Source of the DNA: Candidatus Poribacteria bacterium
Lineage (GTDB): Bacteria > Poribacteria > DTPJ01 > WJIO01
Length of the DNA stretch: 15,036 nt
Reading direction: 5' to 3'
Assembly: GCA_014730235.1 (NCBI GenBank)
Contig: WJIO01000051.1
Location: 1 to 15,036 of the forward strand
A model generated the notes under the pieces. That model saw only the letters and a list, made by a program, of their open reading frames with translations, made no database searches and had not been told where the DNA came from. The first letter of the stretch is position 1, and every line of letters starts with the position of its first letter. Made by a program: the position numbers and the translations under genes. Below, piece by piece: positions 2,649-15,036 of the stretch.

Positions 2649-3434
2649 ATGAAAACTCCTGTCGTAACAATATTTGTAATTTTCATACTGGCAATTGGTA
2701 TTGGCCTGGCGATTTATGATTACAGCAAACACGGTCCTCGCCAGGGAAATAGCGATATATCCAAATCAGAAGCTGAAACCCTTAAGGAAACTAAATTGTC
2801 AGGAGATGAACAGGCTTATAAGGGGTCATACGAAAAAGCCATTGAAAAATATAAACACGCCCTGAAGATATCCCCCAGAGATGCTTATATACATAATGAT
2901 CTGGGAACAGCCTATTATCATCTTGGATTGGAAAAAGCCGATCCCCCCATGACTGAAGACCAATTTGATTTTGGAATAGAAGTAGATGCAAGACGTGTAG
3001 AAGAAACGGAAACGGTTCTTCAGATGTTTGAAAATGCTGAGGAAAAAACTAAATCAGGTATTATAACTATAGTTGTAGACGAACCAGAGATTAAAGATAC
3101 AGTTGTAAATAAAGCCCTGGCTGAAGATTATTATGCTCATGCGGAAACAGAAACTCAGGAGAATAAAAAGGAATATTGGATAACTGTAATTAAAGGTGAG
3201 ACAAAGGAAGCTTTTTTAAATGCTGAAAAGGAATATTTAGAAGCCATAGATATTAAATCTGTAAGGGACGCGGAAGGAAGAAAATATTCCAGTTATTCTA
3301 CAGCCTCCAGAAATCTTGGCGTTCTTTACTTTAGAATGGGCAGAAAAAAAGATGCCGTTGAACAATGGCGCAGGGCCTTCCAGCTTGAACCCACCGATGC
3401 TGAATTAAGAAATCTACTTGGCAAATATGAATAA
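2649..3434 (+). CDS. Membrane-anchored TPR protein
   Basis: This 261-residue protein has an N-terminal membrane segment (about residues 4-24, PVVTIFVIFILAIGIGLAIYD) that places the remainder outside the cytoplasm. A tetratricopeptide repeat at about 44-90 contains the typical pattern 'A.KGSYEKAIEKYKHALKI.P.DA..HNDLGTAYY', and a second clear repeat lies at about 218-251 (SRNLGVLYFRMGRKKDAVEQ). The charged segment between them (about 95-210) is helical and unrecognised. TPR arrays bind protein partners, so a scaffold role for an envelope complex is likely, but the partner is unknown. A GGGAG at 2634-2638 and AGGA at 2641-2644 precede ATG 2649. Its stop codon overlaps the next gene by eight bases, indicating translational coupling. 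It follows htrA on the same strand after a 178-base repeat-bearing gap. Confidence 0.8.
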   Translation: MKTPVVTIFVIFILAIGIGLAIYDYSKHGPRQGNSDISKSEAETLKETKLSGDEQAYKGSYEKAIEKYKHALKISPRDAYIHNDLGTAYYHLGLEKADPPMTEDQFDFGIEVDARRVEETETVLQMFENAEEKTKSGIITIVVDEPEIKDTVVNKALAEDYYAHAETETQENKKEYWITVIKGETKEAFLNAEKEYLEAIDIKSVRDAEGRKYSSYSTASRNLGVLYFRMGRKKDAVEQWRRAFQLEPTDAELRNLLGKYE

Positions 3435-4335
3435 TATCTCCATATCATTTCAACCTATGACCGTTAGAGAAATACTCCGACGGTCTTTTCGTATATACAA
3501 ATCAAACTATATCAGATTTATTGGAACTATACTCCTGATAAAAGGCTCTTACCTGATACTGGGGTATATCATTAAAGAAATTATTGTATTTATTGTCAAA
3601 GGCCCCAACCCCGATACATTAGCACCTGAGACGATGATATATGTGGATTACCTGATTGATCTGGGCATAAAGGCTTTTGAGTTATTCTTCATAACACCTT
3701 TCCTGGTGGGTATTCTGACTATTTCTATATCCAGTATGCTGTTGAATAAAAAAGCTGGAATTGTTGATGTCTACAGCAGGTTATCGAAAAAAATTCTGCC
3801 GTTGATTGGAACAGTTTTTATAACCGGTGTCATGATGGCTGTGGTGTTTTTTATGTCCGCGTCACTGGGTTTATCCATGATATTTGCCGGATCACAACCA
3901 GGACTACTGGTAGTTATCGCCGGTATGTTTATGACTGGTGTTTTACTGGTCTGGTATGCCTTTATATCCCAGGCAGTTATATTTGAGGGCGAGGGTGGAA
4001 TAGGCGCAATGAAGCGCAGTAAATATCTGGTTAAAGGCAGCTTTGCAAGGACTTTTTTACTGGTCATAGTTTCCCTGATTGCTATTACATTTGCAGCCGA
4101 ATTGGCTTCTCTGGGTGTCTATCAGCTTTTTTCATTATTTGGTAGTTATGGAATTACATTGGCTGGCGGAGCTTCAGAGGGTGTTTCCAACATAATATCT
4201 GTGATTGTTGAACCCTTGAGAATTATTATCATTATTATTTTATATTATGATTTTAGGATACGTAAAGAGGGGTATGATCCGGAAATAATGGCCCAGGAAT
4301 TTAAAGGCATTACTGAAAAGGAATCGGAAGTGTAA
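3427..4335 (+). CDS. Polytopic membrane protein, GPDPase membrane-domain type
   Basis: The 302-residue product has about six membrane segments (near 31-58, 82-105, 123-153, 159-186, 207-235 and 253-275) and short charged ends. The N-terminal MTVREILRRSFRIYKSN, the loop EGEGGIGAMKRSKYLVKG and the C-terminal YYDFRIRKEGYDPE match the pattern of the stand-alone membrane domain related to the one found in some glycerophosphodiester phosphodiesterases (YciC-like superfamily). No catalytic domain is attached. Its function in such families is not established. ATG 3427 is preferred over the in-frame TTG 3418, and it lies inside the last codons of the TPR gene (overlap 3427-3434), so the two proteins are probably made together. 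A partner role in one envelope assembly is inferred from this coupling. The assignment rests on motif memory only. Confidence 0.72.
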   Translation: MNNISISFQPMTVREILRRSFRIYKSNYIRFIGTILLIKGSYLILGYIIKEIIVFIVKGPNPDTLAPETMIYVDYLIDLGIKAFELFFITPFLVGILTISISSMLLNKKAGIVDVYSRLSKKILPLIGTVFITGVMMAVVFFMSASLGLSMIFAGSQPGLLVVIAGMFMTGVLLVWYAFISQAVIFEGEGGIGAMKRSKYLVKGSFARTFLLVIVSLIAITFAAELASLGVYQLFSLFGSYGITLAGGASEGVSNIISVIVEPLRIIIIIILYYDFRIRKEGYDPEIMAQEFKGITEKESEV

Positions 4336-4384: not shown

Positions 4385-4521
4385 TTGTCATTCCTGCTTC
4401 AAGCTTTTTGAAAAAGCTTGAGCAAAAAGAAAAACTCAGTAGTAGGGACACAGCATGCCGTATCCCTACAAGCGCATAAATGCTATGCCTTTTAAAAAGT
4501 CCGAAAGTATAGAATGACAAA
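4385..4521. repeat. Composite palindromic repeat, family A copy, in the convergent intergenic region
   Basis: TTTGTCATTC at 4384-4393 is matched by its complement GAATGACAAA at about 4512-4521, giving inverted ends to a roughly 137-base block. Inside, TGCTTCAAGCTTTTT (4395-4409) pairs with AAAAAGCTTGAGCA (4411-4424) with one bulged base, and a second palindrome occupies 4442-4469. The GTCATTCCTGCTTCAAGC part also occurs at 13728 and, interrupted, at 13149. It fills the gap between a + strand operon ending at 4335 and a minus-strand operon ending at 4534, where such palindromes can serve as shared terminators. Confidence 0.65.
4442..4469 (-). terminator. GTAGGGA palindrome, possible terminator of the minus-strand operon
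   Basis: GTAGGGA (4442-4448) and TCCCTAC (4463-4469) frame a 28-base palindrome centred on GCATGC, with 12 of 14 base pairs possible. Read on the minus strand, the hairpin is followed after a few bases by GTTTTTCTTTTT, so it may terminate the four-gene operon whose last stop is at 4534. Similar GTAGGG...CCCTAC palindromes recur as dispersed repeats in several bacterial groups, from general memory, so it may equally be a mobile-type palindrome used as a terminator. Confidence 0.45.
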
Positions 4522-4533
4522 TAACCTGCAAAA

Positions 4534-7254
4534 TCAATTTTTTCCTGTACTTATTACCGTTATCCTCACCCTTGAACTGCTGTCATCGGTTGAATCACAT
4601 CGAAATTCTAAATAATTTTTCCCGTTTTTAACCAAAGGTATTTGACCTTTTGGTAAAACTTCGCTTAAAGTCTCTCCCTGTGTGCCAAAAAGTTTGCAGT
4701 TATCCATTCTGTTGAATTCCAGATACTGGCCTGTTTCCATTTTTACAGGGAAAATTATTTCCTCATTTTCTACCTTTATAGATGGATTCACAATCTTATT
4801 ATTGGTTAGTTTTATTGCCTTTACAGGTTTAATAAGACATGTAACAGATTCACCGTCAGGGATATTATTATACCAGAGACTTATACTTTCCACGCTGCTA
4901 TAATTCACTGATTCCCGGTATATGGCATAAGGAGAACCATAGGGCCATTTGTATTTGGCATATCTTTCTCCCTCTGGCTCTATAAGCTCAAAGTAACGCC
5001 ATCCGGTGAAATTAATAGTTATGTAATGATCCTCAATTCCGTGACTGATATGCTGTGGGCTTTTCAACTGAACGTTAAGAATTTCACCCTTACCATCACC
5101 ATTGACCCATATGCCTATGCCCTGATGGTTGGTTAAATTCAAAGGCTCTGGGAATTTTTTTGCAACCATACACCATGAGGATTTTTGTTCTGCACCTATA
5201 TTCTTAGCCGAATATGTTAAGATATTCTTATCAACTGAAAATTCTGCTGAGATACCATCAAAGTTTACACTCTCAGTCAATTCTTCTATACTTTCAAATC
5301 CCAGTAGTATCGGATTATCCTCTTCGCCATAGTTGTCGGCTGATGTTAAAGCCTCTATACGAAGCTTTAGCGGCTGATCCTGGAATTTATTATCTATACT
5401 CCATCTGTTGCTCCAGCCGTCAATACCTTCAACCTTATGTTTTACATACTGAATCGGCAGGAAATACCAGCTTCCGTCCTTCCTCTGTTTCAGCGTGTAT
5501 TCATCACCGGGAACTTTCAGCTTTTCCTTTATATCATTGGAAAAATAATTTGATCGTCGAAGCATTTCATACTGACGCATAATTTCCGACAGCCTCTCGT
5601 ATGCCGGTATCTGGGATATATTATCCGGTGTAATTCCCATGATGGACAGGCCTGCCTCTGTGCCAATACACTTACAGCACAGGTATTCAATATCATCGGC
5701 AAAAGTAGGTTCACCCTGATGTCCTGTCCATGTCTTAACTGCCCACCATCCCAGATGCGGCGGCAGGAACATGCGCTTGATATCTTCATTGGCGGAACAA
5801 TGCACATCAATAAAACGCTTGTGGCTTCGGGTGGGATGATCCCATGCGCCCATCCTTGCCCTTACATACCACAAATGATGATGGAACGTACTCATTTCCA
5901 TTATTGGCGATTTTTTCGCCCTTTTCACAAGCTCAAAGACAAATTTAGAACCGTAATGCCAGCTATTTTCACCACCACCCAGCACATCCTCACCATCCAG
6001 AGCATCCAGATACATCATGTCAAAACCACATTCGTTATACATATCAGCATTGGTCTCAGCTACCTTATAGAATAAATCAGAATCGGGATCAGGTGCGAAC
6101 AGACCGAAACATTCTTTCAGATGGTGTACCCTGGCTCCTGCGTCGTGCTGTGCCGGTTTGGTGCCATAAGCTCCACGATTGCAGTTGGTAAAGGCATAGG
6201 GTTTCTCTTTAGATATGCCGCTGTAAGTTATAAGTTCATCTTCAATCTGGATGGTTACGCTGTTTCGCACAAAAAAACCGGTTACTGTGGACATGCTCTC
6301 AGTGGATTCTTCCACAGGAACAATAACAGTATCCACCGTTATTGATTCAGACAGGGTAAAAGTAGCGTCTTTAGCCAATCCGGGGTCAGGAACAGGAGTA
6401 ACCCAGGGACAATCTTTCGCTATAAAGAAGGCATATGTATGAAATCCTGCCAGGATTCCGGCTTCGTGTAATTTATCGATAACAGCCTTAAAGCTGGCTC
6501 TACAGTTGGGATAAGTCTCCGGATTAGGACGACAGTCACCAAACCGGAAGGAATTACCTCCATGAAAATCGATCTGATTAACACCCACCTTTTTGGCCAG
6601 AGCAATCCAGTCATCCACGTTTTCCTCCGAAAGACCACCGAAGTTAAACATGTAGGAACCGCGATTATTTTCCGAATCCAGTGCCCAGGGACCGCCCACA
6701 TTGGATTTGGGCAGTTCTGGCGTTTCTGTAACCACCTCCTGCATAACAAAGCGCAGGTATTTCTGCGGACATCCGATGATGGCAACCTTTGCCCCTGCAA
6801 AACCAAACCGGGGATAACACATAGCCCTGAGTCTTGTATTGTCCCGGGGAATCTCAACTACGTTGGTCTGTAAATTCAAAGCCAACGCACATCCAGCCAG
6901 AGCATCGTCAGATTCGCCGGCAGGTTTAAGCTGTATGTTGGCAAAGACGAATTCATCTACAATCTTATCCGGGTTTTCGCTTTCCACCGATAGAACTTCG
7001 ATAATTATGTAGTTATCTTTTTCAGTATACCTTAAAACCGCCTTAACATCTGCTTCGCCAAATTCCAGAGATAATTGTTCTTCGGTGGTAACCACCGAAG
7101 AACAATTGTAATAACGATCGGCTATTTTTACCTTTGCGCAGCTTGATCCTTCCTTGCAGTAATCTTTGCCATTGAGCTTATCTAAAAAATTAAGATTAAC
7201 GCCGTTGGAACCTATAACATACTTCACATATTTGTTTTCAATCTCTACATTCAT
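4534..7254 (-). CDS. Large glycoside-hydrolase-like TIM-barrel protein with an inserted beta-module
   Basis: The product has 906 residues from ATG 7254. The order appears to be an N-terminal beta-rich domain (about 1-180), a (beta/alpha)8-type barrel (about 190-550) and C-terminal beta-sandwich segments (about 655-815, with INFTGWRYFELIEPE) suggestive of carbohydrate binding. NQIDFHGGNSF, GILAGFHTYAFF and GFDMMYLDALDGED resemble barrel strands of alpha-galactosidase-like or clan GH-D/GH31-like enzymes; Asp417 or Asp420 in the last motif is a candidate nucleophile and Glu453 (PIMEMSTF) a candidate partner. No named family is assigned. The barrel is interrupted near 295-380 by a module with the pattern ELITYSGI and RGAYGTKPAQHDAGARV. 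ATG 7254 has GGGGAG nine bases upstream; an in-frame TTG at 7314 would add a 20-residue hydrophobic N-terminus without basic residues. About twenty cysteines argue against an oxidising compartment. It is last in the operon. Confidence 0.7.
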   Translation of the reverse strand: MNVEIENKYVKYVIGSNGVNLNFLDKLNGKDYCKEGSSCAKVKIADRYYNCSSVVTTEEQLSLEFGEADVKAVLRYTEKDNYIIIEVLSVESENPDKIVDEFVFANIQLKPAGESDDALAGCALALNLQTNVVEIPRDNTRLRAMCYPRFGFAGAKVAIIGCPQKYLRFVMQEVVTETPELPKSNVGGPWALDSENNRGSYMFNFGGLSEENVDDWIALAKKVGVNQIDFHGGNSFRFGDCRPNPETYPNCRASFKAVIDKLHEAGILAGFHTYAFFIAKDCPWVTPVPDPGLAKDATFTLSESITVDTVIVPVEESTESMSTVTGFFVRNSVTIQIEDELITYSGISKEKPYAFTNCNRGAYGTKPAQHDAGARVHHLKECFGLFAPDPDSDLFYKVAETNADMYNECGFDMMYLDALDGEDVLGGGENSWHYGSKFVFELVKRAKKSPIMEMSTFHHHLWYVRARMGAWDHPTRSHKRFIDVHCSANEDIKRMFLPPHLGWWAVKTWTGHQGEPTFADDIEYLCCKCIGTEAGLSIMGITPDNISQIPAYERLSEIMRQYEMLRRSNYFSNDIKEKLKVPGDEYTLKQRKDGSWYFLPIQYVKHKVEGIDGWSNRWSIDNKFQDQPLKLRIEALTSADNYGEEDNPILLGFESIEELTESVNFDGISAEFSVDKNILTYSAKNIGAEQKSSWCMVAKKFPEPLNLTNHQGIGIWVNGDGKGEILNVQLKSPQHISHGIEDHYITINFTGWRYFELIEPEGERYAKYKWPYGSPYAIYRESVNYSSVESISLWYNNIPDGESVTCLIKPVKAIKLTNNKIVNPSIKVENEEIIFPVKMETGQYLEFNRMDNCKLFGTQGETLSEVLPKGQIPLVKNGKNYLEFRCDSTDDSSSRVRITVISTGKN
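7073..7107. repeat. Perfect 35-bp palindrome inside a coding sequence
   Basis: AATTGTTCTTCGGTGGT (7073-7089) and its exact complement ACCACCGAAGAACAATT (7091-7107) flank a single central base. It lies in the coding region of the TIM-barrel protein and encodes NCSSVVTTEEQL near residue 50 (counting from ATG 7254). The mRNA would carry an exceptionally strong hairpin with practically no loop as written. Its GTTCTTCGG core is vaguely similar to the family B repeat ends (GGTTCTTCCGGG), but that link is weak. Confidence 0.85.
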
Positions 7255-7377
7255 ATTTTCTATCTCCCCAGGTGTGGATAATATTGTTAAAAACAGCAGT
7301 ATAATGTATAACAAGCTCTCTTATCCCCAATTATGATCAGCACATTAACCAGTCTCAGCATTAAATGTTTTTCATAT

Positions 7378-8112
7378 TTAACCTGAAACATCCCCGATTA
7401 TCCCCTCTGGAAAACGTTCCAGTATTTCCGGATCATGGGAAGGTATAACAATATCAGCAACTTTCCTTATCTTCTTCATAGCTTCAAGACAGGGTTCAGG
7501 TTCGGCCCATCCGATAGGAATATTATTCTCCATGTTCTTATACTTATAGACTACATCACCTGTAAATACAACCGTTCCCTGTGTTGTATCCACTGCCACA
7601 GCCTGACTGCATACAGAATGGCATCCCAGCCAGAAAGTTCTGATCCCCGGCATAACCTCTTCATCCTCCACGAGTTTTAGACTTTGGGGCCACCTTCTGG
7701 CTAAAACCCGCATTACGTTGGGTTTTATGCCCATCAGCGATTCTGTAAAACCCCGTTTATTCACCACAAACTGGGCATTGGGAAACAGATCGAAGTAATC
7801 GTAATGGTCGCCGTGCAGATGGGTTATAAATACATGACTTACGTCATTAACTTCAACACCCGCCTGCTTAAGAAGCTCTGGAGTGCGCTCTTCCGGTTTC
7901 TGGATCACACCGCCCGGAATATATTTCCCTGTGCCTTTGTTAAATACTTCAACATCCCTGGGACCTGTGTCCACCAGCATAGGCTTTTCGCCGCCTTCTA
8001 TAACGTAGACATATAGATAAAAGAGGCTGGTATCATCGTTTCCATCGGTGTAGGTTATATAATTTCTGACTCTACATTCACCGTTTTTTAGAATCCTTAT
8101 TTTATATTTCAA
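7378..8112 (-). CDS. Metallo-beta-lactamase-fold hydrolase, lactonase-like (second paralogue)
   Basis: This 244-residue protein has the full set of dizinc ligands of the N-acyl-homoserine-lactonase-type MBL fold: His98, His100, Asp102 and His103 in THLHGDHYD, His165 in GCHSVCSQ, Asp186 in VFTGDVV and His226 in IPSHDPE. Related enzymes hydrolyse lactone, ester or similar bonds; the true substrate is not readable. There is no signal peptide, so it should be cytoplasmic. The start is TTG 8112, which overlaps the TGA of the preceding gene as TTGA, with AAGGAG seven bases upstream; stop and start are translationally coupled. It is clearly a paralogue of the preceding protein (shared MKYxIR start, VFITHLH, IPSHDP and the RFPEG ending). 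Quorum quenching is possible, but the glycosidase neighbours suggest catabolic lactone hydrolysis; this is inference. Confidence 0.87.
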   Translation of the reverse strand: MKYKIRILKNGECRVRNYITYTDGNDDTSLFYLYVYVIEGGEKPMLVDTGPRDVEVFNKGTGKYIPGGVIQKPEERTPELLKQAGVEVNDVSHVFITHLHGDHYDYFDLFPNAQFVVNKRGFTESLMGIKPNVMRVLARRWPQSLKLVEDEEVMPGIRTFWLGCHSVCSQAVAVDTTQGTVVFTGDVVYKYKNMENNIPIGWAEPEPCLEAMKKIRKVADIVIPSHDPEILERFPEGIIGDVSG

Positions 8113-8858
8113 CCTATGACTCCTTCAGGAAAACGGTCAAAAATACCGGGATCATGACTTGGTAAGATTATTGCATTGCGTTCTTTCAGCTTTTTCATGG
8201 CCCTTTTAACTTCCTCCAGGTCATCATATACACCTACCGGGATTTGTTTTTCTATATTTGCCAGCAGTGAAACAGTATCACCGGTCATAATGGCTTCACC
8301 GGCTTCGGTCTGGACACATACAGCCTGACTGCACGGCGTATGACCACCGATCCATATCACTTCCACACCCGGCAGTACCGTTTTATCATCTAAAGCTATG
8401 ACACGCTCTTTCCAATTCTGTGTCAAACCCCGCAGTGTCTTACCCGGTGCCCAGCTACCCACCCAACCGGGATTTGCAGTGGCGGCTTCAAGCCCGCGTT
8501 TTGATACAACGATCTTTGCGTTTTTGTAAATATCAAGCTGATCTATATGATCAAAATGCAGATGGGTAATAAATACATAACCAATATCTTTCGGCTTGTA
8601 TCCATATTTATCAAGCTGTGCAACTGCTGTCTGTTCTGGTGTCTGAGTTATAGGTTCAGCCAATACATGAGCCGCACCGCTATTCATCTCATCAACATTT
8701 TTCAGTCCTGCATCTACCAGCATGGGCCTCTCCCCACCTTCTATCAGCCAAAGAAAAAGCATATATGTATAGCGTTCATCAGGATTACCTCTGTAAAAGG
8801 CATAGTTTCCAGCAATAACACATCTGCCGTTAGGTAGTGGGCGAATGTTGTATTTCAT
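8109..8858 (-). CDS. Metallo-beta-lactamase-fold hydrolase, lactonase-like (first paralogue)
   Basis: The 249-residue product is a complete MBL-fold hydrolase of the AHL-lactonase-like group. The metal ligands are His99, His101, Asp103 and His104 in THLHFDHID, His173 in GGHTPCSQ, Asp194 in IMTGDTV and His235 in LPSHDPG. No export signal is present. The start ATG 8858 has GGAGG five to six bases upstream, a very strong ribosome binding site, and lies only 14 bases after the stop of the GH123-type gene, so the genes are co-transcribed. Both paralogues keep all metal ligands, so neither looks degenerate, and they differ most around residues 120-165, next to the likely substrate pocket. This suggests related but different substrates (for example two lactones or esters from one glycan source), though a heterodimer cannot be excluded. 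Confidence 0.88.
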   Translation of the reverse strand: MKYNIRPLPNGRCVIAGNYAFYRGNPDERYTYMLFLWLIEGGERPMLVDAGLKNVDEMNSGAAHVLAEPITQTPEQTAVAQLDKYGYKPKDIGYVFITHLHFDHIDQLDIYKNAKIVVSKRGLEAATANPGWVGSWAPGKTLRGLTQNWKERVIALDDKTVLPGVEVIWIGGHTPCSQAVCVQTEAGEAIMTGDTVSLLANIEKQIPVGVYDDLEEVKRAMKKLKERNAIILPSHDPGIFDRFPEGVIG

Positions 8859-8872
8859 TTAATCCTCCATAT

Positions 8873-11872
8873 CTACTCCAGTTCTTCTATCATCCGGGCG
8901 ATCCGTTCTCGATGGGAAAACATAGGCTCAGGATCAACAGTAAAGTCTGTCATATTTTTAACTATATTTTCCGGTAGATTCAATAATTTTTTGGCTTCAG
9001 CTATTAATTCTTCTGGTTTTTCCTTTGCTTTCTTAATCCTTTCAGCCAGAATCCAGAAGTATTCAAAATCTTCAATTCCTTCCCTCAGCATTTCCCACCT
9101 GAAGGAACTTACCGGTTCAGCAAAGCACTTTTCATCACTTTCCATAGCTTCTACCGGCGGATAAATAAATCGGCCGTCACCATTACCCCAGTAGCCTATG
9201 TAACCAACAGGACGGCCGTAGCCTGTTTGGTAACTCATGGGATCTTCATATGGATTCTGATAGTCCGGATCCGGAAACACCAGACCGCTTGTCCAGTAGT
9301 TGGTCTGCCATACCAGTATACCTTTCAGCTTGTATTTCCACGTCTGCCAAAGCCATAGACGCATCTCAGTAGCAAAATGATCTATAAATAGAGTAACATA
9401 AGGCTCTTTAGGCCCGGTGCATACATACCACCAGAAACTTTCGCCTTCTTTTCTGCGTTCTTCGGCTTTCTCATGGTTATAAGATGAAGTTACCGGACAC
9501 CAAATGTCAACGCTTCCGAATAATTCAGATTCCGGTTGCTCTGTTAGTAATCGAGTGATTTTGGGAGCCGCTCGATGTATTAAACTCATACCATCGTTGA
9601 CGAATTCGTAATCCTTCGGGGATGGTTCATCGAACCAATATACAAATGTGTGTTCCAGCCATCCCTTTTGTTCCAGATGCTTTTCCACCTGACTCAGGTA
9701 TTCGGTAAAAAGCCTTTCATGCTCAGGGGTTCCCTGCTTATGGCCGTTTATTTCCCCTAACCGTCTGGAATGGAAAGTTCCGCCGCCCATGCCGTATAAA
9801 GGCATCCTGAAAGAGGTAAATCCCATTTCATCGAAATATTTTTCAGCAGAGCGATCAAAGGCTTCAAAATCTATCTTCACCTGATCATCTGAAAAATCTA
9901 CCTTTATAGGATCAAGCTGCATAGCATTATACGGAGAAATGCGATGTTTTGAAAAGCTTTCATAATATTTATCCAGTACCTGCCTTAGTTCTTCTTCAGT
10001 TTCCAGATGGTGATATTTTTTAACATTGCCCACAGAAAAGCCCATCGCTGATCTTACGTGGCTTTCCTTTGCCAGTGAGAATCTCCACACATGCAAATGA
10101 AGCTGGAACTGCTGAGACCATGAATCGGCTTTAACCGTAAGTTTACCACGATAATCTCCGGCTGTTGCATGCGGCGGTACATATACATTTATCCACAATG
10201 GCTGATTTTGGTCTGCTTTTAAAGATAATGAACCTTTATACGGTGGCAGAGGATCGGGCCAGTAACCCACACAACCGACTCTATCGGTAGGAATTTTTAC
10301 ATATACATACCCCACTGTGGAAATCTCTATATTTTCTGTGGGGATAATATGACCTTCCATAGTCCTGAGTTCTCCTATTTCTATAGAAACATCCTGTAAG
10401 TCTTTTTCCGACCTAAGCACCAACTGGAAAGGTTCATACTCGTTTCGGGCTGCACTTATATATATTTCATCGGCCTTCTTTTCAGGAACAGGTCTTTCCC
10501 TGCTTATTTTATATGTGCTTTCCGCCCACCATATAGAGAGATCATCGCTTTTGCCTAATAAATAACCGTAGTCGGCAGCGTATAGCTGAGGAACCTGGAA
10601 ATATGTGCGGGTGGAATAGAGCGTTTCACCATACGGCGTATCAATGGATATCGTCAATTCGAATTCACCGGATTTGTGTATTTCATAAGGGATCTCCACA
10701 ATTTTTGTTTCACCCTCTGCAATATCAGGTTTTGCAGAATTTTCATATTCTTCCGTACCGGATATTTTTAAGGAGGCATTGATCGGTAAACCAAGATCAT
10801 TCATAACCTTAAGCTTTACCGAATTAGCTTCTCCCGGTTTCAGACTGCCCAGGGAAATTAACTCTACATCCAGTTGGTCACTAGCGGCTATAATGTCAAT
10901 ATATCTGGTATCCCCTACCATATCGGGTATATCAGTTCCTATCAAATCAGCCTTGTAGGAATAATTATGAATTTGCAAAGATGCCGGTTCTCCTTCAGTT
11001 CCCTGTCCCACAAGCCTGACATATACTTCCTCTGCCGGAAGCATTTCATCCGGCACGTTAAATGTTTCGTGAGATACCTTATCCATAACGCCTATAGTCT
11101 TCCAATCATTGGCATTTATACTAGTCTGTATTTCACATATACCCCTTTGATAATATCCTATTCCTACGGTCACCGATGCCTTTTTCTGCTTATAATTATT
11201 AACTTTTTGTCTATATATAACCTCTGAATTTGTTCCCATAAGCCATCGGTAAGAATTAAATCCTGCCGTATGAGAATACAGGTTTCGGGATGAGTTAGAG
11301 CCTTCACCTCTAAGGTTTGCCCGGAATTTGTATGTATCGTTTTGTATTACTTCCCCTTCTCCCAGAACCAAAGCTTTATTTTTATTATGCAGAGCAAATA
11401 CCGGGGTAAGGTTTATATTGTCAAACCAGACCTTTCCGGATTTATGCCACTGTCCAAAGCGCAGGTAAGTTCCTGAAACATTATCGGGAGCTGTAAAAAC
11501 AAAACTTCTTTTTTCCCATTCTGTACCTATGGAAAAATCTCTGTTTACGGCGTTTGATCCTGTTATGACGGTGCCTTCGCTGGAATCTGGACTGACCTTT
11601 GATGCAAAGGAAATCCTGTATATTTTCCCCGGTTCCAGTCCGGGATTTTCAAATTTCCAGTAGTTTGAATTTTCACCGTCTCCGGTTACGCTAATACTTC
11701 GCTCTCCTGTATATCCTTCCTTTTCCCATTCACCTGTTCCCTCAGATAATGACCAACCCGCAGGTGCATCTTCCCCTTTTTCAAAGGAATCATTGATGGC
11801 TTCGGCAGCACAGAATGAATAAATAATCAATAATGAAATAGACAAAATAATGCCTCCTCTTATGGTCTGCAC
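8873..11872 (-). CDS. Exported GH123/DUF4091-type glycoside hydrolase with carbohydrate-binding-like N-terminus
   Basis: A signal peptide (MQTIRGGIILSISLLIIYSF, with likely cleavage near CAAEA, residues 21-25) leads a 999-residue protein. Residues about 27-158 form a galactose-binding-like/CBM4_9-type jelly roll (FRFGQWHKSGKVWFDNINL). Residues about 160-310 form a second beta-sandwich and 330-425 an Ig-like segment. The GH123-type N-terminal beta-domain (about 430-600) and catalytic barrel (about 600-950, formerly DUF4091) follow. The Asp-Glu pair used in substrate-assisted catalysis by GH123 N-acetyl-beta-galactosaminidases is visible as Asp748-Glu749 in FVYWFDEPSP, and the closing signature RWEMLREGIEDFEYFWIL is present. 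GalNAc specificity is not certain, because DUF4091 proteins are diverse. GTG 11872 is preceded by GGAGG seven bases upstream. It is the first gene of the four-gene operon, under the promoter at 11929-11957. Confidence 0.85.
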   Translation of the reverse strand: MQTIRGGIILSISLLIIYSFCAAEAINDSFEKGEDAPAGWSLSEGTGEWEKEGYTGERSISVTGDGENSNYWKFENPGLEPGKIYRISFASKVSPDSSEGTVITGSNAVNRDFSIGTEWEKRSFVFTAPDNVSGTYLRFGQWHKSGKVWFDNINLTPVFALHNKNKALVLGEGEVIQNDTYKFRANLRGEGSNSSRNLYSHTAGFNSYRWLMGTNSEVIYRQKVNNYKQKKASVTVGIGYYQRGICEIQTSINANDWKTIGVMDKVSHETFNVPDEMLPAEEVYVRLVGQGTEGEPASLQIHNYSYKADLIGTDIPDMVGDTRYIDIIAASDQLDVELISLGSLKPGEANSVKLKVMNDLGLPINASLKISGTEEYENSAKPDIAEGETKIVEIPYEIHKSGEFELTISIDTPYGETLYSTRTYFQVPQLYAADYGYLLGKSDDLSIWWAESTYKISRERPVPEKKADEIYISAARNEYEPFQLVLRSEKDLQDVSIEIGELRTMEGHIIPTENIEISTVGYVYVKIPTDRVGCVGYWPDPLPPYKGSLSLKADQNQPLWINVYVPPHATAGDYRGKLTVKADSWSQQFQLHLHVWRFSLAKESHVRSAMGFSVGNVKKYHHLETEEELRQVLDKYYESFSKHRISPYNAMQLDPIKVDFSDDQVKIDFEAFDRSAEKYFDEMGFTSFRMPLYGMGGGTFHSRRLGEINGHKQGTPEHERLFTEYLSQVEKHLEQKGWLEHTFVYWFDEPSPKDYEFVNDGMSLIHRAAPKITRLLTEQPESELFGSVDIWCPVTSSYNHEKAEERRKEGESFWWYVCTGPKEPYVTLFIDHFATEMRLWLWQTWKYKLKGILVWQTNYWTSGLVFPDPDYQNPYEDPMSYQTGYGRPVGYIGYWGNGDGRFIYPPVEAMESDEKCFAEPVSSFRWEMLREGIEDFEYFWILAERIKKAKEKPEELIAEAKKLLNLPENIVKNMTDFTVDPEPMFSHRERIARMIEELE

Positions 11873-11928: not shown

Positions 11929-11957
11929 ATCATAACAGACTGATAAGCTTTTGACAA
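11929..11957 (-). promoter_or_regulatory. sigma70-type promoter of the glycan operon
   Basis: On the minus strand, TTGTCA (complement of 11952-11957) and TATGAT (complement of 11929-11934) are separated by exactly 17 bases, a near-consensus housekeeping promoter. Transcription would begin near 11922, giving a leader of about 50 nt before GTG 11872. It lies between the sigma-factor gene and the GH123-type gene, so the operon need not be read from the sigma gene. No sigma28-type element with correct spacing was found here. Confidence 0.72.
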
Positions 11958-11976: not shown

Positions 11977-12762
11977 TTATTCTGCAATAGCTTCCTGTTG
12001 GATGGAGTAACCTTCCGGTATCATTTTAGGTTTCAGCATTTGGAAAAGATTCAGAAGTGCGTTGGAGTGTATCTGACATATGCGGGATTCGGTAAGGGAA
12101 AGAACTTTACCAATTTCTCTCATGGTCATTTCTTCGTAGTAATAGAGGGTGATAACTATTGATTCTTTTTTATTAAGGGATTTTATCGCTTTAATGAGAA
12201 TATCTTTTGTTTCCTGAGTGATAACCTGGTCTATGGGATACTTGGGATCAGGATCCTCAATTACCATATCATTAGCATCATCATCCTCATTGGCATTTCG
12301 TCTTTGGCTAAGCATTATAATAGTGGAAGGGCCAATTTGAACGAGCATTTTGCGGAACTGTTCCAGATCCATGTTTAGTTCTTCTGCCAGTTCTTCCTCA
12401 TTAGGTGGGCGGGAATATATTTGTTCAAGATGATTATATGCACGTCTGAGGCTGTGGGCTTTTTCCTGGATAGATCTGGGTGTCCAGTGAAGTTTTCTTA
12501 TTTCGTCGAGAATTGCCCCCCTGATGCGGTATTTTGCATAAGTCTTAAAACTCGTCTGCATTAGAGGGTTATATTTTTCTACAGCATCCAGCAGCCCTAT
12601 TATACCAACACTTGCAAGATCATCAGCATTGCAACATGGGGATGCATATAATGAGAAGCGATGCGCTAAAGACTTAATCATTGGAAAACACTTTAAGATT
12701 AACTTCTCTTTAGCATCAATATCGCCCTCTTGCTTATACTGCCTCCATAGTTCCGCCAGCAT
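11977..12762 (-). CDS. fliA: RNA polymerase sigma factor, FliA/WhiG (sigma28) family
   Basis: The 261-residue protein has the group-3 sigma layout. Region 2 (about 20-95) contains DDLASVGIIGLLDAVEKYN and TYAKYRIRGAILDEIRKLHW, then PRSIQEKA opens region 3 (about 96-150). Region 4 (about 188-240) carries the helix-turn-helix EEMTMREIGKVLSLTESRIC. 'FKTYAKYRIRGAILDEIR..HW.PRS' is the family signature; FliA and SigD are 239-254 residues long, so the length is normal. The family directs flagellar, chemotaxis or other alternative regulons and is held back by FlgM. ATG 12762 has GAGGG about seven bases upstream. A FlgM-like gene, with a sigma28-like promoter, and an NtrC-family activator lie upstream on the same strand, which supports a flagellar-type circuit. 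There is a 104-base gap to the downstream glycan operon. Confidence 0.92.
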   Translation of the reverse strand: MLAELWRQYKQEGDIDAKEKLILKCFPMIKSLAHRFSLYASPCCNADDLASVGIIGLLDAVEKYNPLMQTSFKTYAKYRIRGAILDEIRKLHWTPRSIQEKAHSLRRAYNHLEQIYSRPPNEEELAEELNMDLEQFRKMLVQIGPSTIIMLSQRRNANEDDDANDMVIEDPDPKYPIDQVITQETKDILIKAIKSLNKKESIVITLYYYEEMTMREIGKVLSLTESRICQIHSNALLNLFQMLKPKMIPEGYSIQQEAIAE

Positions 12763-13092
12763 TCCTCAACCCTCTTATGGAAATTATTGTAAATATTAAT
12801 TTGTAACGTAAAAGCCATATCCAGCATTCATTAAGCATTGGTATGTATCCCTCTTGCTATATAATATCGTATAAAGAAGATAGGAACAAATATACAACAA
12901 GCAATTAACATACCAGAAAAAACAATTTACTTGTGATTATCCCCAAGTGCATAATGACTCGATTTGCGACATATACAATTTTTTATGTATATTTTGTTAG
13001 TTGGAAATTATGTTTCCTTCCGGGAAAATATTTCCATATTTGTTTATTTGTGTAAATAATTTAAAAGCTCCACAGGATAACAAGCAAAGTTT
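12763..13092. other. AT-rich gene-free region upstream of the sigma gene
   Basis: No credible gene is present. The region holds a candidate promoter (listed separately), a small inverted repeat ATATACA/TGTATAT at 12971-12991, and an imperfect palindrome at 13002-13036. In the latter, TGGAAAT pairs with ATTTCCA around TTTCCTTCCGGGAAA; its TTATGTTTCCTTCCGGG part looks like one end of the family B repeat. No sigma54-type (-24/-12) element was found upstream of the sigma gene by eye. Confidence 0.5.
12861..12889 (-). promoter_or_regulatory. Candidate sigma70-type promoter of the sigma-factor gene
   Basis: On the minus strand, TTGTTC (complement of 12884-12889) and TATTAT (complement of 12861-12866) are 17 bases apart. 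Transcription would start near 12854, giving a leader of about 90 nt before ATG 12762. The region is AT-rich, so chance matches are common and the call is tentative. Confidence 0.45.
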
Positions 13093-13270
13093 ATAATTAT
13101 GTTTCTTCCGGGTTAAGTGTGATAAAGATAAGAGACCTTTTTTATGCTGTCATTCCTGCGAAAATCTCATTCCTTTTTGCTCAAGCTTTTTCAAAAAGCT
13201 TGAAGCAGGAATAACAAGATGAGAAAATTTTCAATTATAACTACACTGAACCCGGAAGAAACATAATTAT
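13093..13270. mobile_element. MITE-like element, family B, interrupted by a family A palindrome
   Basis: A 22-bp perfect inverted repeat (13093-13114 and 13249-13270) extends to 28 bp with one mismatch (to 13120 and from 13243). The outer eight bases on each side are ATAATTAT, which is itself palindromic, so they can also be read as an 8-bp direct target duplication flanking a 162-base element that starts GTTTCTTCCGGGTT and ends AACCCGGAAGAAAC. There is no open reading frame of note inside. The interior contains the family A palindrome at 13149-13215. A related degenerate copy is at 2485-2603. This structure fits a non-autonomous transposable element; the transposase is not in the window. Confidence 0.62.
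13149..13215. repeat. Family A palindrome, interrupted copy
   Basis: GTCATTCCTGC (13149-13159) is mirrored by GCAGGAATAAC (13205-13215). In between, GCTCAAGCTTTTT pairs with AAAAAGCTTGAAGC around a single C. About 25 extra bases, including a second TCATTCCT, sit in the left half. It lies inside the family B element, so the family A sequence probably entered or rearranged after that element was present. Confidence 0.65.
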
Positions 13271-13276
13271 TTTAAC

Positions 13277-13633
13277 TCAGGAATTTTTAGCATCAGAAAT
13301 TTGCTTTATTAATTCCTGAAATTCCTTTAACATATTTTCACTTTCCCGGGCTGCGTCTTCTACGAATGATAGATATTTTCTTAGATCCTCTTTACCTATC
13401 ATTAGAAATACCAGTTGAGTATTGGCCAGGATTGTAATCAATTTATCGCTTAACTGATTGGTTAATTCATCACCTTTTATTAAGATATTATCCAGTGTAT
13501 CCGGCTGTATTTGTTCTTCCGTTTGATCCTGTAAAAAGTCCTCAACTTGATTATTCTTTAGTTTTCTTTTTCCAGCATTCCCTATTTCTTTTACAACGTA
13601 GGCGGATTTAATTCTGTCTGGACTGTTCAACAT
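13277..13633 (-). CDS. Small helical protein of unknown function between flgM-like and fliA genes
   Basis: The product has 118 residues from ATG 13633, which is preferred over ATG 13645 because GGGAG lies five bases upstream of it and the earlier ATG has no ribosome binding site. No family is recognised. It is hydrophilic and charged at the N-terminus (NSPDRIKSAYVVKEIG, then a Lys-rich and a Gln/Glu-rich stretch), followed by two or three amphipathic helices (about 50-112, including LSDKLITILANTQLVFLMIG and SENMLKEFQELIKQIS). It has no signal peptide or membrane segment. In many flagellar clusters flgM is followed by flgN, a small helical chaperone, and position and helix content make that comparison tempting, but I see no decisive FlgN motif. 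It could equally be a sigma28-related regulator or an unrelated gene. Confidence 0.55.
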   Translation of the reverse strand: MLNSPDRIKSAYVVKEIGNAGKRKLKNNQVEDFLQDQTEEQIQPDTLDNILIKGDELTNQLSDKLITILANTQLVFLMIGKEDLRKYLSFVEDAARESENMLKEFQELIKQISDAKNS

Positions 13634-13727
13634 GATGGCTCCCATGTTATTTATTATGTGGGTTTCAACTAAAACCAGATGTTTCAGTGCTTAAAGAGAC
13701 ACTAGCAAATGAAAATACTATCAGGCG

Positions 13728-13775
13728 GTCATTCCTGCTTCAAGCTTTTTTTAAAAAGCTTGAAGCAGGAATGAC
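13728..13775. repeat. Family A palindrome, perfect copy
   Basis: A 23-base arm (13728-13750, beginning GTCATTCCTGC and ending AAGCTTTTT) is followed after two Ts by its exact complement (13753-13775). It sits in the 244-base gap between the FlgM-like gene and the small helical gene. With almost no loop it would extrude as a cruciform or form a long RNA hairpin. There is no separate U-tract after it, so an intrinsic terminator role is uncertain. This is the best copy of the family and can serve as its reference. Confidence 0.8.
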
Positions 13776-13877
13776 ATAGAAATATATTTTTTGAGCATTT
13801 TCATCCGTTTCTTCATGCTGAATTCCTATAAACATCGGTTTTAGAGATTTTTTAGAATTCTCAGTACTTATTATTTA

Positions 13878-14168
13878 TCAGGTAGTTCCATCGTCTGGTG
13901 ATTGATAACAATCCTCTTCATATACAAAAAGTATATTAAGACCATAACTTATAATCCTGTCCGCAACCTGGTCTATTCCAGGGGTATAAATCCCATGTGA
14001 GATCCTTATTTTTAAATCAGAAATCATATCCTCACGGACACATGAAGACTTTTTTATAAGTTTATTCAATCTTTTTAATTCTACAGAATTATATAAAGAG
14101 GAAATTTTACCTTCTCCTGTTATACATAATTTAATATATTTCCCAGATTTTGCTGGGTTGAAGTCCAT
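13878..14168 (-). CDS. flgM: FlgM-like anti-sigma28 factor
   Basis: The product has 96 residues. The segment 45-72 (REDMISDLKIRISHGIYTPG, then IDQVADRI) fits the FlgM C-terminal pattern 'R.e.I..LK..I..G.Y.vd...vA..i', the part that wraps around sigma28. The N-terminal half is polar and poorly conserved, as is usual, and the length is that of FlgM (about 90-100 residues). A C-terminal extension (about 73-96, FVYEEDCYQSPDDGTT) goes beyond the usual end. FlgM binds FliA until the hook is complete and is then secreted. The gene lies upstream of the FliA-type gene and has a sigma28-like promoter at 14182-14208. ATG 14168 directly follows an in-frame stop and has only a weak ribosome binding site; with that promoter the leader would be very short. 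The call rests on motif, size and context. Confidence 0.62.
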   Translation of the reverse strand: MDFNPAKSGKYIKLCITGEGKISSLYNSVELKRLNKLIKKSSCVREDMISDLKIRISHGIYTPGIDQVADRIISYGLNILFVYEEDCYQSPDDGTT

Positions 14169-14181
14169 CTACATACCATCT

Positions 14182-14208
14182 ATATCGGCAAAAGGTTATA
14201 TAGACTTA
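14182..14208 (-). promoter_or_regulatory. sigma28 (FliA)-type promoter of the FlgM-like gene
   Basis: On the minus strand, TAAG (complement of 14205-14208) and GCCGATAT (complement of 14182-14189) are separated by exactly 15 bases. The sigma28 consensus is TAAA-N15-GCCGATAA, so only one base differs in each half. It lies 14 bases upstream of ATG 14168 and right after the stop of the NtrC-family gene. If used, the start point would be near 14175, giving a leader of only about seven nt. It would place the anti-sigma gene under control of its own target, a feedback known for flgM in enterobacteria. Confidence 0.65.
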
Positions 14209-14216
14209 AATTTTTT

Positions 14217-15036
14217 TTAATCCCCTTTTCCTGTAGAATCCCCCTCTGAATATTGCTGTAATTTATTTCTTATAGTTCTTGTTGTTATGCCGAGTATATC
14301 GGCAGCTTTGGTTCTGTTTCCTCCAACGCTTTCAAGGGTTTTTAGTATAAGATGTTTTTCCATCTCCTGCAGGGAAATTCCCACAGGTATCCAGTTTTCT
14401 GAATGAATAGAAGATATTTTGTCGGGAAAAAAATTTCTTACTGATAACTCAGAACCTTGGCAAAGCATCACCGCCCTTTTTATAACATTCTCCAGCTCCC
14501 GGACATTACCGGGCCAGTTATAATTTTCCAAAGCGTTCAAGGCTTTTTTTGATACATCAGGTGTCTTTTTTCCTATCTGTGATGAAAATTTATCCAGGAA
14601 GTATAACGCCAGTATTTTTATATCACGATGACGATTACGAAGGGGGGGCACAACAATTGGTATAACATCAAGTCGATAATACAGATCACCCCGGAAATTA
14701 CCTTCTTTTATTTCTTTTTCTATATTTCTGTTTGTTGTTGCTACAACCCTTACATCAACTTTTATAGGTTTAGTTCCGCCTACCCGGTCAATTTCCTCCT
14801 CCTGGAGAACGCGCAGCAGTTTTGCCTGGAGTGATGGAGCCATTTCAGCGATCTCGTCCAGCAATAAAGTTCCTTTATTAGCAAGCTCAAATTTACCAAT
14901 CCTTCTTTCTATAGCACCGGTAAAAGCCCCCTGTTCGTGTCCGAATAATTCACTTTCCAGCAGGTTTTCCGGTAGAGCGGCACAGTTTACAGCGACAAAA
15001 TCTCCATCCCGATACTTATCGCGGTTGTGTATGGCC
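14217..15036 (-). CDS. NtrC-family sigma54-dependent transcriptional activator (5' end outside the window)
   Basis: The frame is open from the window edge to the stop at 14217 and gives the C-terminal 272 residues. Visible AAA+ elements are the sigma54-contact loop GAFTGA (codons at 14913-14930), Walker [12 protein letters not shown], the ATTNR sensor segment, the [10 protein letters not shown] segment and [16 protein letters not shown] Fis-type helix-turn-helix ends the protein ([20 protein letters not shown]). Walker A and any N-terminal receiver or sensor domain lie beyond the window, so the activating signal cannot be read. These proteins use ATP to open sigma54-polymerase promoters. The ATG at 14864 is internal, not the start. 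With FlgM-like and FliA-like genes immediately downstream, it may be a FlrC/FlgR-type flagellar regulator, but the sequence here does not separate that from other NtrC relatives. Confidence 0.93.

Follow-up and report, generated by a model that had tools for sequence, protein, structure and literature searches.

A conserved, co-translated pair of AiiA-like metallo-beta-lactamase proteins encoded between a GH123-type enzyme and a large predicted TIM-barrel protein

UlaG, the L-ascorbate-6-phosphate lactonase, is a metallo-beta-lactamase (MBL)-fold protein that opens a sugar-derived lactone within a catabolic operon and thus provides a precedent for MBL proteins in sugar breakdown. It belongs to a different MBL subfamily from the two proteins described here, MBL1 and MBL2, is encoded by a single gene and acts on a phosphorylated substrate. 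The nearest PDB relatives of MBL1 and MBL2 are the AiiA-type lactonases (E = 3e-20 and 1e-21, respectively); Tyr194 of AiiA has been described as stabilizing the tetrahedral substrate (PMC12388617). Among the glycosidases, catalysis in family GH123 is defined by an Asp-Glu pair, and the enzyme of PDB entry 8k2j is an oligosaccharide/monosaccharide-releasing beta-N-acetylgalactosaminidase (beta-NGA) of the NgaDssm type (PMC11087588). Here, we describe a gene cluster in which relatives of these enzymes lie next to each other.

The window, that is, the whole stretch of DNA analyzed (15,036 nucleotides), is one whole contig (C415) of a 5.5-Mb genome that is 92% complete and consists of 451 contigs, and sequence past either end is therefore not visible. 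The cluster comprises four intact ORFs in the same orientation, as initially annotated, with the following features:

8873..11872, minus strand: putatively secreted GH123-type enzyme, 999 aa; Pfam PF13320, PF22680 and PF02018 above cut-offs
9626..9631, minus strand: codons for Asp748 and Glu749, the catalytic motif (FDEP), which aligns with the DE of 8k2j
8109..8858, minus strand: MBL1, AiiA-like MBL protein, 249 aa, without a visible signal peptide; Ser at the position of AiiA Tyr194
8109..8112, minus strand: 4-nt stop/start overlap (TTGA) of MBL1 and MBL2; NTGA overlap in 7/7 pairs
7378..8112, minus strand: MBL2, AiiA-like MBL protein, 244 aa; Tyr at the position of AiiA Tyr194
4534..7314 (start may be ATG 7254), minus strand: BIG, 926 aa, member of an unannotated cross-phylum family; characterized by a 21-sequence alignment, an AlphaFold (AF2) model and fold matches
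11929..11957, minus strand: promoter-like site TTGTCA-17-TATGAT with an extended -10 (TG); consensus match only, 10/12
4399..4469 (4399-4421 and 4442-4469), no strand assigned: inverted repeats downstream of BIG, in the convergent gap; a possible terminator region judged from the sequence only

The genes for the GH123-type protein and MBL1 are separated by 14 nt. The gap between MBL2 and BIG depends on the start codon of BIG: it is 63 nt for TTG 7314 and 123 nt for ATG 7254, and the latter codon is preceded by a good Shine-Dalgarno sequence (GGGGAG). The spacing of 14 bases, a TTGA overlap and about 120 bases that had been reported is reproduced, the last value corresponding to the ATG 7254 start. 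A sequence scan found no terminator-like site between the four genes. One strong promoter had also been postulated, and a promoter-like site is indeed present 57 nt upstream of the GH123 gene. However, 25 such matches were found in the region and 20.3 were expected from shuffled sequence; since this is near chance density, a single strong promoter is plausible but unproven. Directly upstream, on the strand of the cluster (11977-15035), lie genes for a FliA/WhiG sigma factor, an FlgM-like anti-sigma factor and a fragment of an NtrC-type regulator, the last recognized by eye. Scanning the window for tRNAs and Rfam families gave no matches. No transporter was detected among the ORFs scanned, in line with the initial annotation; no family is assigned to the membrane protein encoded at 3418-4335. 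Pfam scans of ten ORFs of the window revealed no SusC/SusD-like pair, the mark of Bacteroidota-type polysaccharide utilization loci. The cluster's GC and GC3 values, only slightly higher than those of its neighbors and near those of other contigs of the genome, gave no clear signal of recent acquisition.

The assignment of the 999-aa protein to the GH123 type stood up to closer inspection. It matched GH123_cat (PF13320) with E = 3e-26 and 92.8 bits, well above the Pfam cut-off of 23.1, Pfam also recognized both of the N-terminal GH123 domains, and its best solved relative is the beta-NGA 8k2j (E = 1e-30), followed by 8k2f and the BvGH123 structures (5l7v). As in 8k2j, an N-terminal sandwich (aa 450-581) precedes the catalytic barrel (aa 658-940), and the consecutive Asp-Glu motif is present as D748-E749. 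The segment GWLxxxxxYWFDEPxPKDYxFV, which holds this pair, is common to the relatives within the phylum. Unlike 8k2j, to which identity is low, the protein carries an additional N-terminal CBM_4_9 domain (aa 26-139) and an unassigned stretch (aa 140-440). The N terminus resembles a signal peptide by eye. By homology, the enzyme would release beta-linked GalNAc or GalNAc-ended oligosaccharides.

BIG matched no Pfam family above its cut-off and no NCBIfam model, and thus has no curated-family link to the GH-D-type clan. Nevertheless, it is not an isolated protein. It has 18 relatives elsewhere, whose records bear the titles Omnitrophota, Verrucomicrobia, Hydrogenedentota, Planctomycetota, Armatimonadota, Chloroflexi and a Cytophagaceae. 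Its own phylum contributed matches with E = 0.001 or better in ten genomes, some of them through a distant family whose members are shorter, at about 770 aa. An alignment of 21 members (39 to 60% identity to the window protein) served as input for an AlphaFold model with a mean pLDDT of 89.4, in which an N-terminal beta-super-sandwich is followed by a (beta/alpha)8 barrel (about aa 203 to 600) and C-terminal beta domains. The model thus bears out the earlier description of a giant TIM-barrel protein. The best fold matches in the PDB (Foldseek, VIA-align) were GH101, GH36, GH27 and GH31 enzymes and the galactosaminidase of F. plautii. The best VIA Z score was 19.3 over 459 residues at 12% identity, and GH36, GH27 and GH31 enzymes gave Z scores of 17 to 19. 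A profile search against PDB sequences independently retrieved the F. plautii enzyme with E = 0.001 over a short stretch of the barrel. The predicted super-sandwich and (beta/alpha)8 barrel are shared with clan GH-D-type enzymes (GH36/GH27, GH31 and the F. plautii galactosaminidase, PDB 9ayu) and with GH101 (PDB 5a59). In contrast to all these enzymes, with which its identity is about 10%, BIG has a large insertion after barrel strand 3 and extra C-terminal beta domains. D437 is invariant (21/21), and E473 and D492 are each kept in 20/20 sequences. D437 ends strand 433-437, the fourth barrel strand by our own strand count in the model; if this count is right, the residue lies at the nucleophile position of these enzymes and is a candidate nucleophile. 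We regard BIG as a putative alpha-glycosidase-type enzyme of the retaining class.

The genes adjoining relatives of BIG encode GH78, GH106-type and DUF6259 proteins, sulfatases, formylglycine-generating enzyme (FGE), 3-keto-disaccharide hydrolases, sodium:solute symporters (SSF) and Gfo/Idh proteins, which fits glycan breakdown. Signal peptides were seen by eye in some relatives and not in others; in the window protein the choice of start decides whether there is one, and its cellular location is therefore uncertain. Two further observations were made at related loci. A DUF6785/DUF6784 membrane protein, a candidate transporter partner, is encoded beside BIG in genome G003 (L091:287-2239), within an operon of the same genome that contains a distant MBL relative (L086:6971-8803), and next to a distant BIG paralogue in G001 (L101:3886-5769). 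In the genome of the window itself, a Gfo/Idh gene whose product carries a GH109-type C-terminal domain is directly followed by the gene for a distant BIG paralogue of 757 aa (L096:6903-10360).

MBL1 and MBL2 had been described as two lactonase-like MBL paralogues, and this description holds: in addition to their AiiA-type PDB relatives, both match Pfam Lactamase_B (E = 8e-15 and 1e-15). With AiiA (PDB 2a7m, 3dha) and 4-pyridoxolactonase they share the MBL fold, the HxHxDH motif and the full set of metal ligands, all seven of which are intact in every aligned MBL1 and MBL2. They differ from these lactonases in being two linked, co-translated paralogues, in having HxxCS in place of the GHxxGH of AiiA, and in scores far below the equivalog cut-offs (82.3 and 80.3 bits, against 375 for the AiiA model NF045699). 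They also differ from each other at the position of AiiA Tyr194. The tyrosine is lost in all seven MBL1 sequences (Ser in five, Phe in two) and kept in eight of nine MBL2 sequences, the exception being a Phe in one MBL2 that stands alone. The AiiA row of this alignment is a sequence that we take to be that of AiiA, and it is consistent with the PDB alignment of MBL1.

The pair was found in seven genomes of two phyla. In its own phylum group, which comprised 84 genomes, it occurs besides the window only in G005; the other five (G609, G610, G611, G612 and G640) came from 291 genomes of a phylum reached through an Armatimonadota locus (L031). MBL1 always precedes MBL2, and each MBL1 has an MBL2 directly downstream. 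The start codon of MBL2 within the overlap is ATG, GTG or TTG across the seven pairs. In a tree of 20 sequences the MBL1 clade (support 97/99) and the MBL2 clade (98/99) are separate. MBL2 without MBL1 was seen in two genomes, G622 and G623 (L141:9961-10728 and L142:10034-10762), one of which has the Phe. At E = 1e-30, searches run without an in-group positive control gave no MBL1 orthologue in the phyla of G098 (0/294), G087 (0/68), G086 (0/268) and G085 (0/14), and a search in the phylum of G092 gave two distant singles. The flanks of the pair differ in each genome and in the second phylum often consist of non-carbohydrate genes; a sugar substrate is therefore not required. In G005 the pair is flanked on one side by an alpha-L-fucosidase gene and on the other by a Gfo/Idh gene. 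That genome's MBL2, Gfo/Idh and GH123 genes (L085:9772-11300, L088:539-4000) are broken by apparent frameshifts or stops, which may be assembly errors. Our literature search for tandem or heteromeric AiiA-type lactonases found no description, and we know of no two-subunit lactonase-like enzyme of the MBL1-MBL2 kind.

Do the four genes form one system? The initial annotation saw the four genes as one operon, in which an exported GH123-type enzyme would release amino-sugar or sugar units and the MBL pair would open lactones or esters inside the cell. In a dedicated catabolic operon serving one pathway, the GH123-type enzyme and BIG would release sugars outside the cell or in the periplasm, and the MBL pair would act in the cytosol on the lactones derived from them. 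That the genes are closely packed in one direction, with no terminator-like site between them, argues for such an operon, as does the fact that all four products are hydrolases; moreover, the pair in G005 also adjoins a glycosidase and a sugar-type dehydrogenase. Co-occurrence was assayed by tblastn of the window proteins against all fetched loci, some with flanks of up to 10 kb, comprising the 18 BIG loci from other phyla, BIG and GH123 loci from within the phylum, and MBL loci. No fetched locus outside the window contained more than one of the three blocks (GH123, MBL pair and BIG). In G001, the only other genome of the same order among those searched, a convergent GH32 gene lies downstream of the GH123 relative (56%), the BIG relative lies on another contig after genes for WbsX-domain, M28 peptidase and FGE-domain proteins, and no MBL relative was found. 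Furthermore, the pairs of the second phylum occur without glycosidases. Many of the contigs with BIG or GH123 genes within the phylum are short, and part of their neighborhood is therefore unseen. The initial annotation had made its proposal depend on the four genes occurring together in other genomes; since the set was absent elsewhere, the proposal fails across the genomes searched, and we regard a dedicated four-gene operon as rather unlikely. The MBL pair alone does recur, as a conserved, co-translated unit in two phyla, which goes beyond what had been claimed.

Two other explanations concern the MBL proteins themselves. They could be a tandem duplicate of a quorum-quenching N-acyl-homoserine lactonase that is unrelated to the glycosidases, given that their closest characterized relatives are of the AiiA type, that the metal ligands are intact and that MBL2 retains the AiiA tyrosine. 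The scores far under the AiiA equivalog cut-off, the HxxCS motif and the missing tyrosine of MBL1 speak against this, as do the varied catabolic operons in which distant relatives occur, and we give it only a small chance. Plasmid relatives are at most about 33% identical and lie in mixed catabolic operons, so that they do not fix the substrate of the pair. On a Sulfitobacter plasmid (L116:1836-10596), a distant relative has a TRAP transporter and a putative quinol monooxygenase encoded on one side and otnK and an aldolase on the other, which suggests sugar-acid chemistry for some proteins of the "N-acyl homoserine lactonase family." By analogy to the inositol pathway proposed for Thermotoga maritima, whose intermediates are named in PMC5931981, the MBL proteins might instead cleave a carbocyclic or keto-sugar intermediate. 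A single relative in G003 does lie in a dehydrogenase-aldolase-kinase operon (L086:1-11547), which encodes a Gfo/Idh protein, a 1,212-aa protein without a Pfam family, GH130, a Zn-type alcohol dehydrogenase, DUF6785, a DeoC-type aldolase, the distant MBL relative and an FGGY kinase, and looks like a complete oxidative sugar pathway. However, the tree places the G003 protein with neither MBL1 nor MBL2, and no isomerase of the T. maritima pathway is encoded near the window; we consider this reading very improbable.

The explanation that we favor, with somewhat better than even confidence, is that separately inherited glycosidases and an MBL module were joined in this lineage and that MBL1 and MBL2 work together on a lactone or ester. 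The stretch would then be a cluster for glycan degradation, specific to the lineage, whose three blocks were inherited independently: a secreted enzyme of the GH123 beta-N-acetylgalactosaminidase type, a large protein with a predicted GH-D-type alpha-glycosidase fold (BIG), and MBL1-MBL2, a cytosolic module of two genes that move together. MBL1 and MBL2 always adjoin, with an invariant order and 4-nt overlap, and they differ in a fixed way at the AiiA tyrosine position; from this we infer that they act on one substrate or in one pathway, be it as subunits of a heteromer or as hydrolases of two consecutive steps. MBL2 would keep the ester/lactone chemistry of AiiA, and MBL1 would be a partner subunit or would have altered chemistry at an intact metal site. 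A stricter version, in which the two form an obligate heteromeric hydrolase that is assembled co-translationally from one subunit with an AiiA-type site and tyrosine and another with metals and no tyrosine, is possible but on balance doubtful. The substrate might be a lactone or ester that arises by oxidation of a released sugar, plausibly via a sugar dehydrogenase; this weaker suggestion is based on the alpha-L-fucosidase and Gfo/Idh neighbors in G005 and on the G003 operon around the distant single relative. Gene order, family membership, the predicted fold of BIG and the conservation and coupling of the pair are observed, and complex formation, the substrate and a functional link of the pair to the glycosidases of the window are inferred.

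In public records, proteins of the MBL1/MBL2 type carry the similarity-based label "N-acyl homoserine lactonase", and a fixed, co-translated pair in which one active site is altered offers a concrete handle on the role of this subfamily. BIG represents a widespread unnamed family, which record titles place in at least six phyla and whose alpha-glycosidase-like predicted fold is directly testable. For MBL1 and MBL2, the tight linkage across two phyla suggests a joint function.
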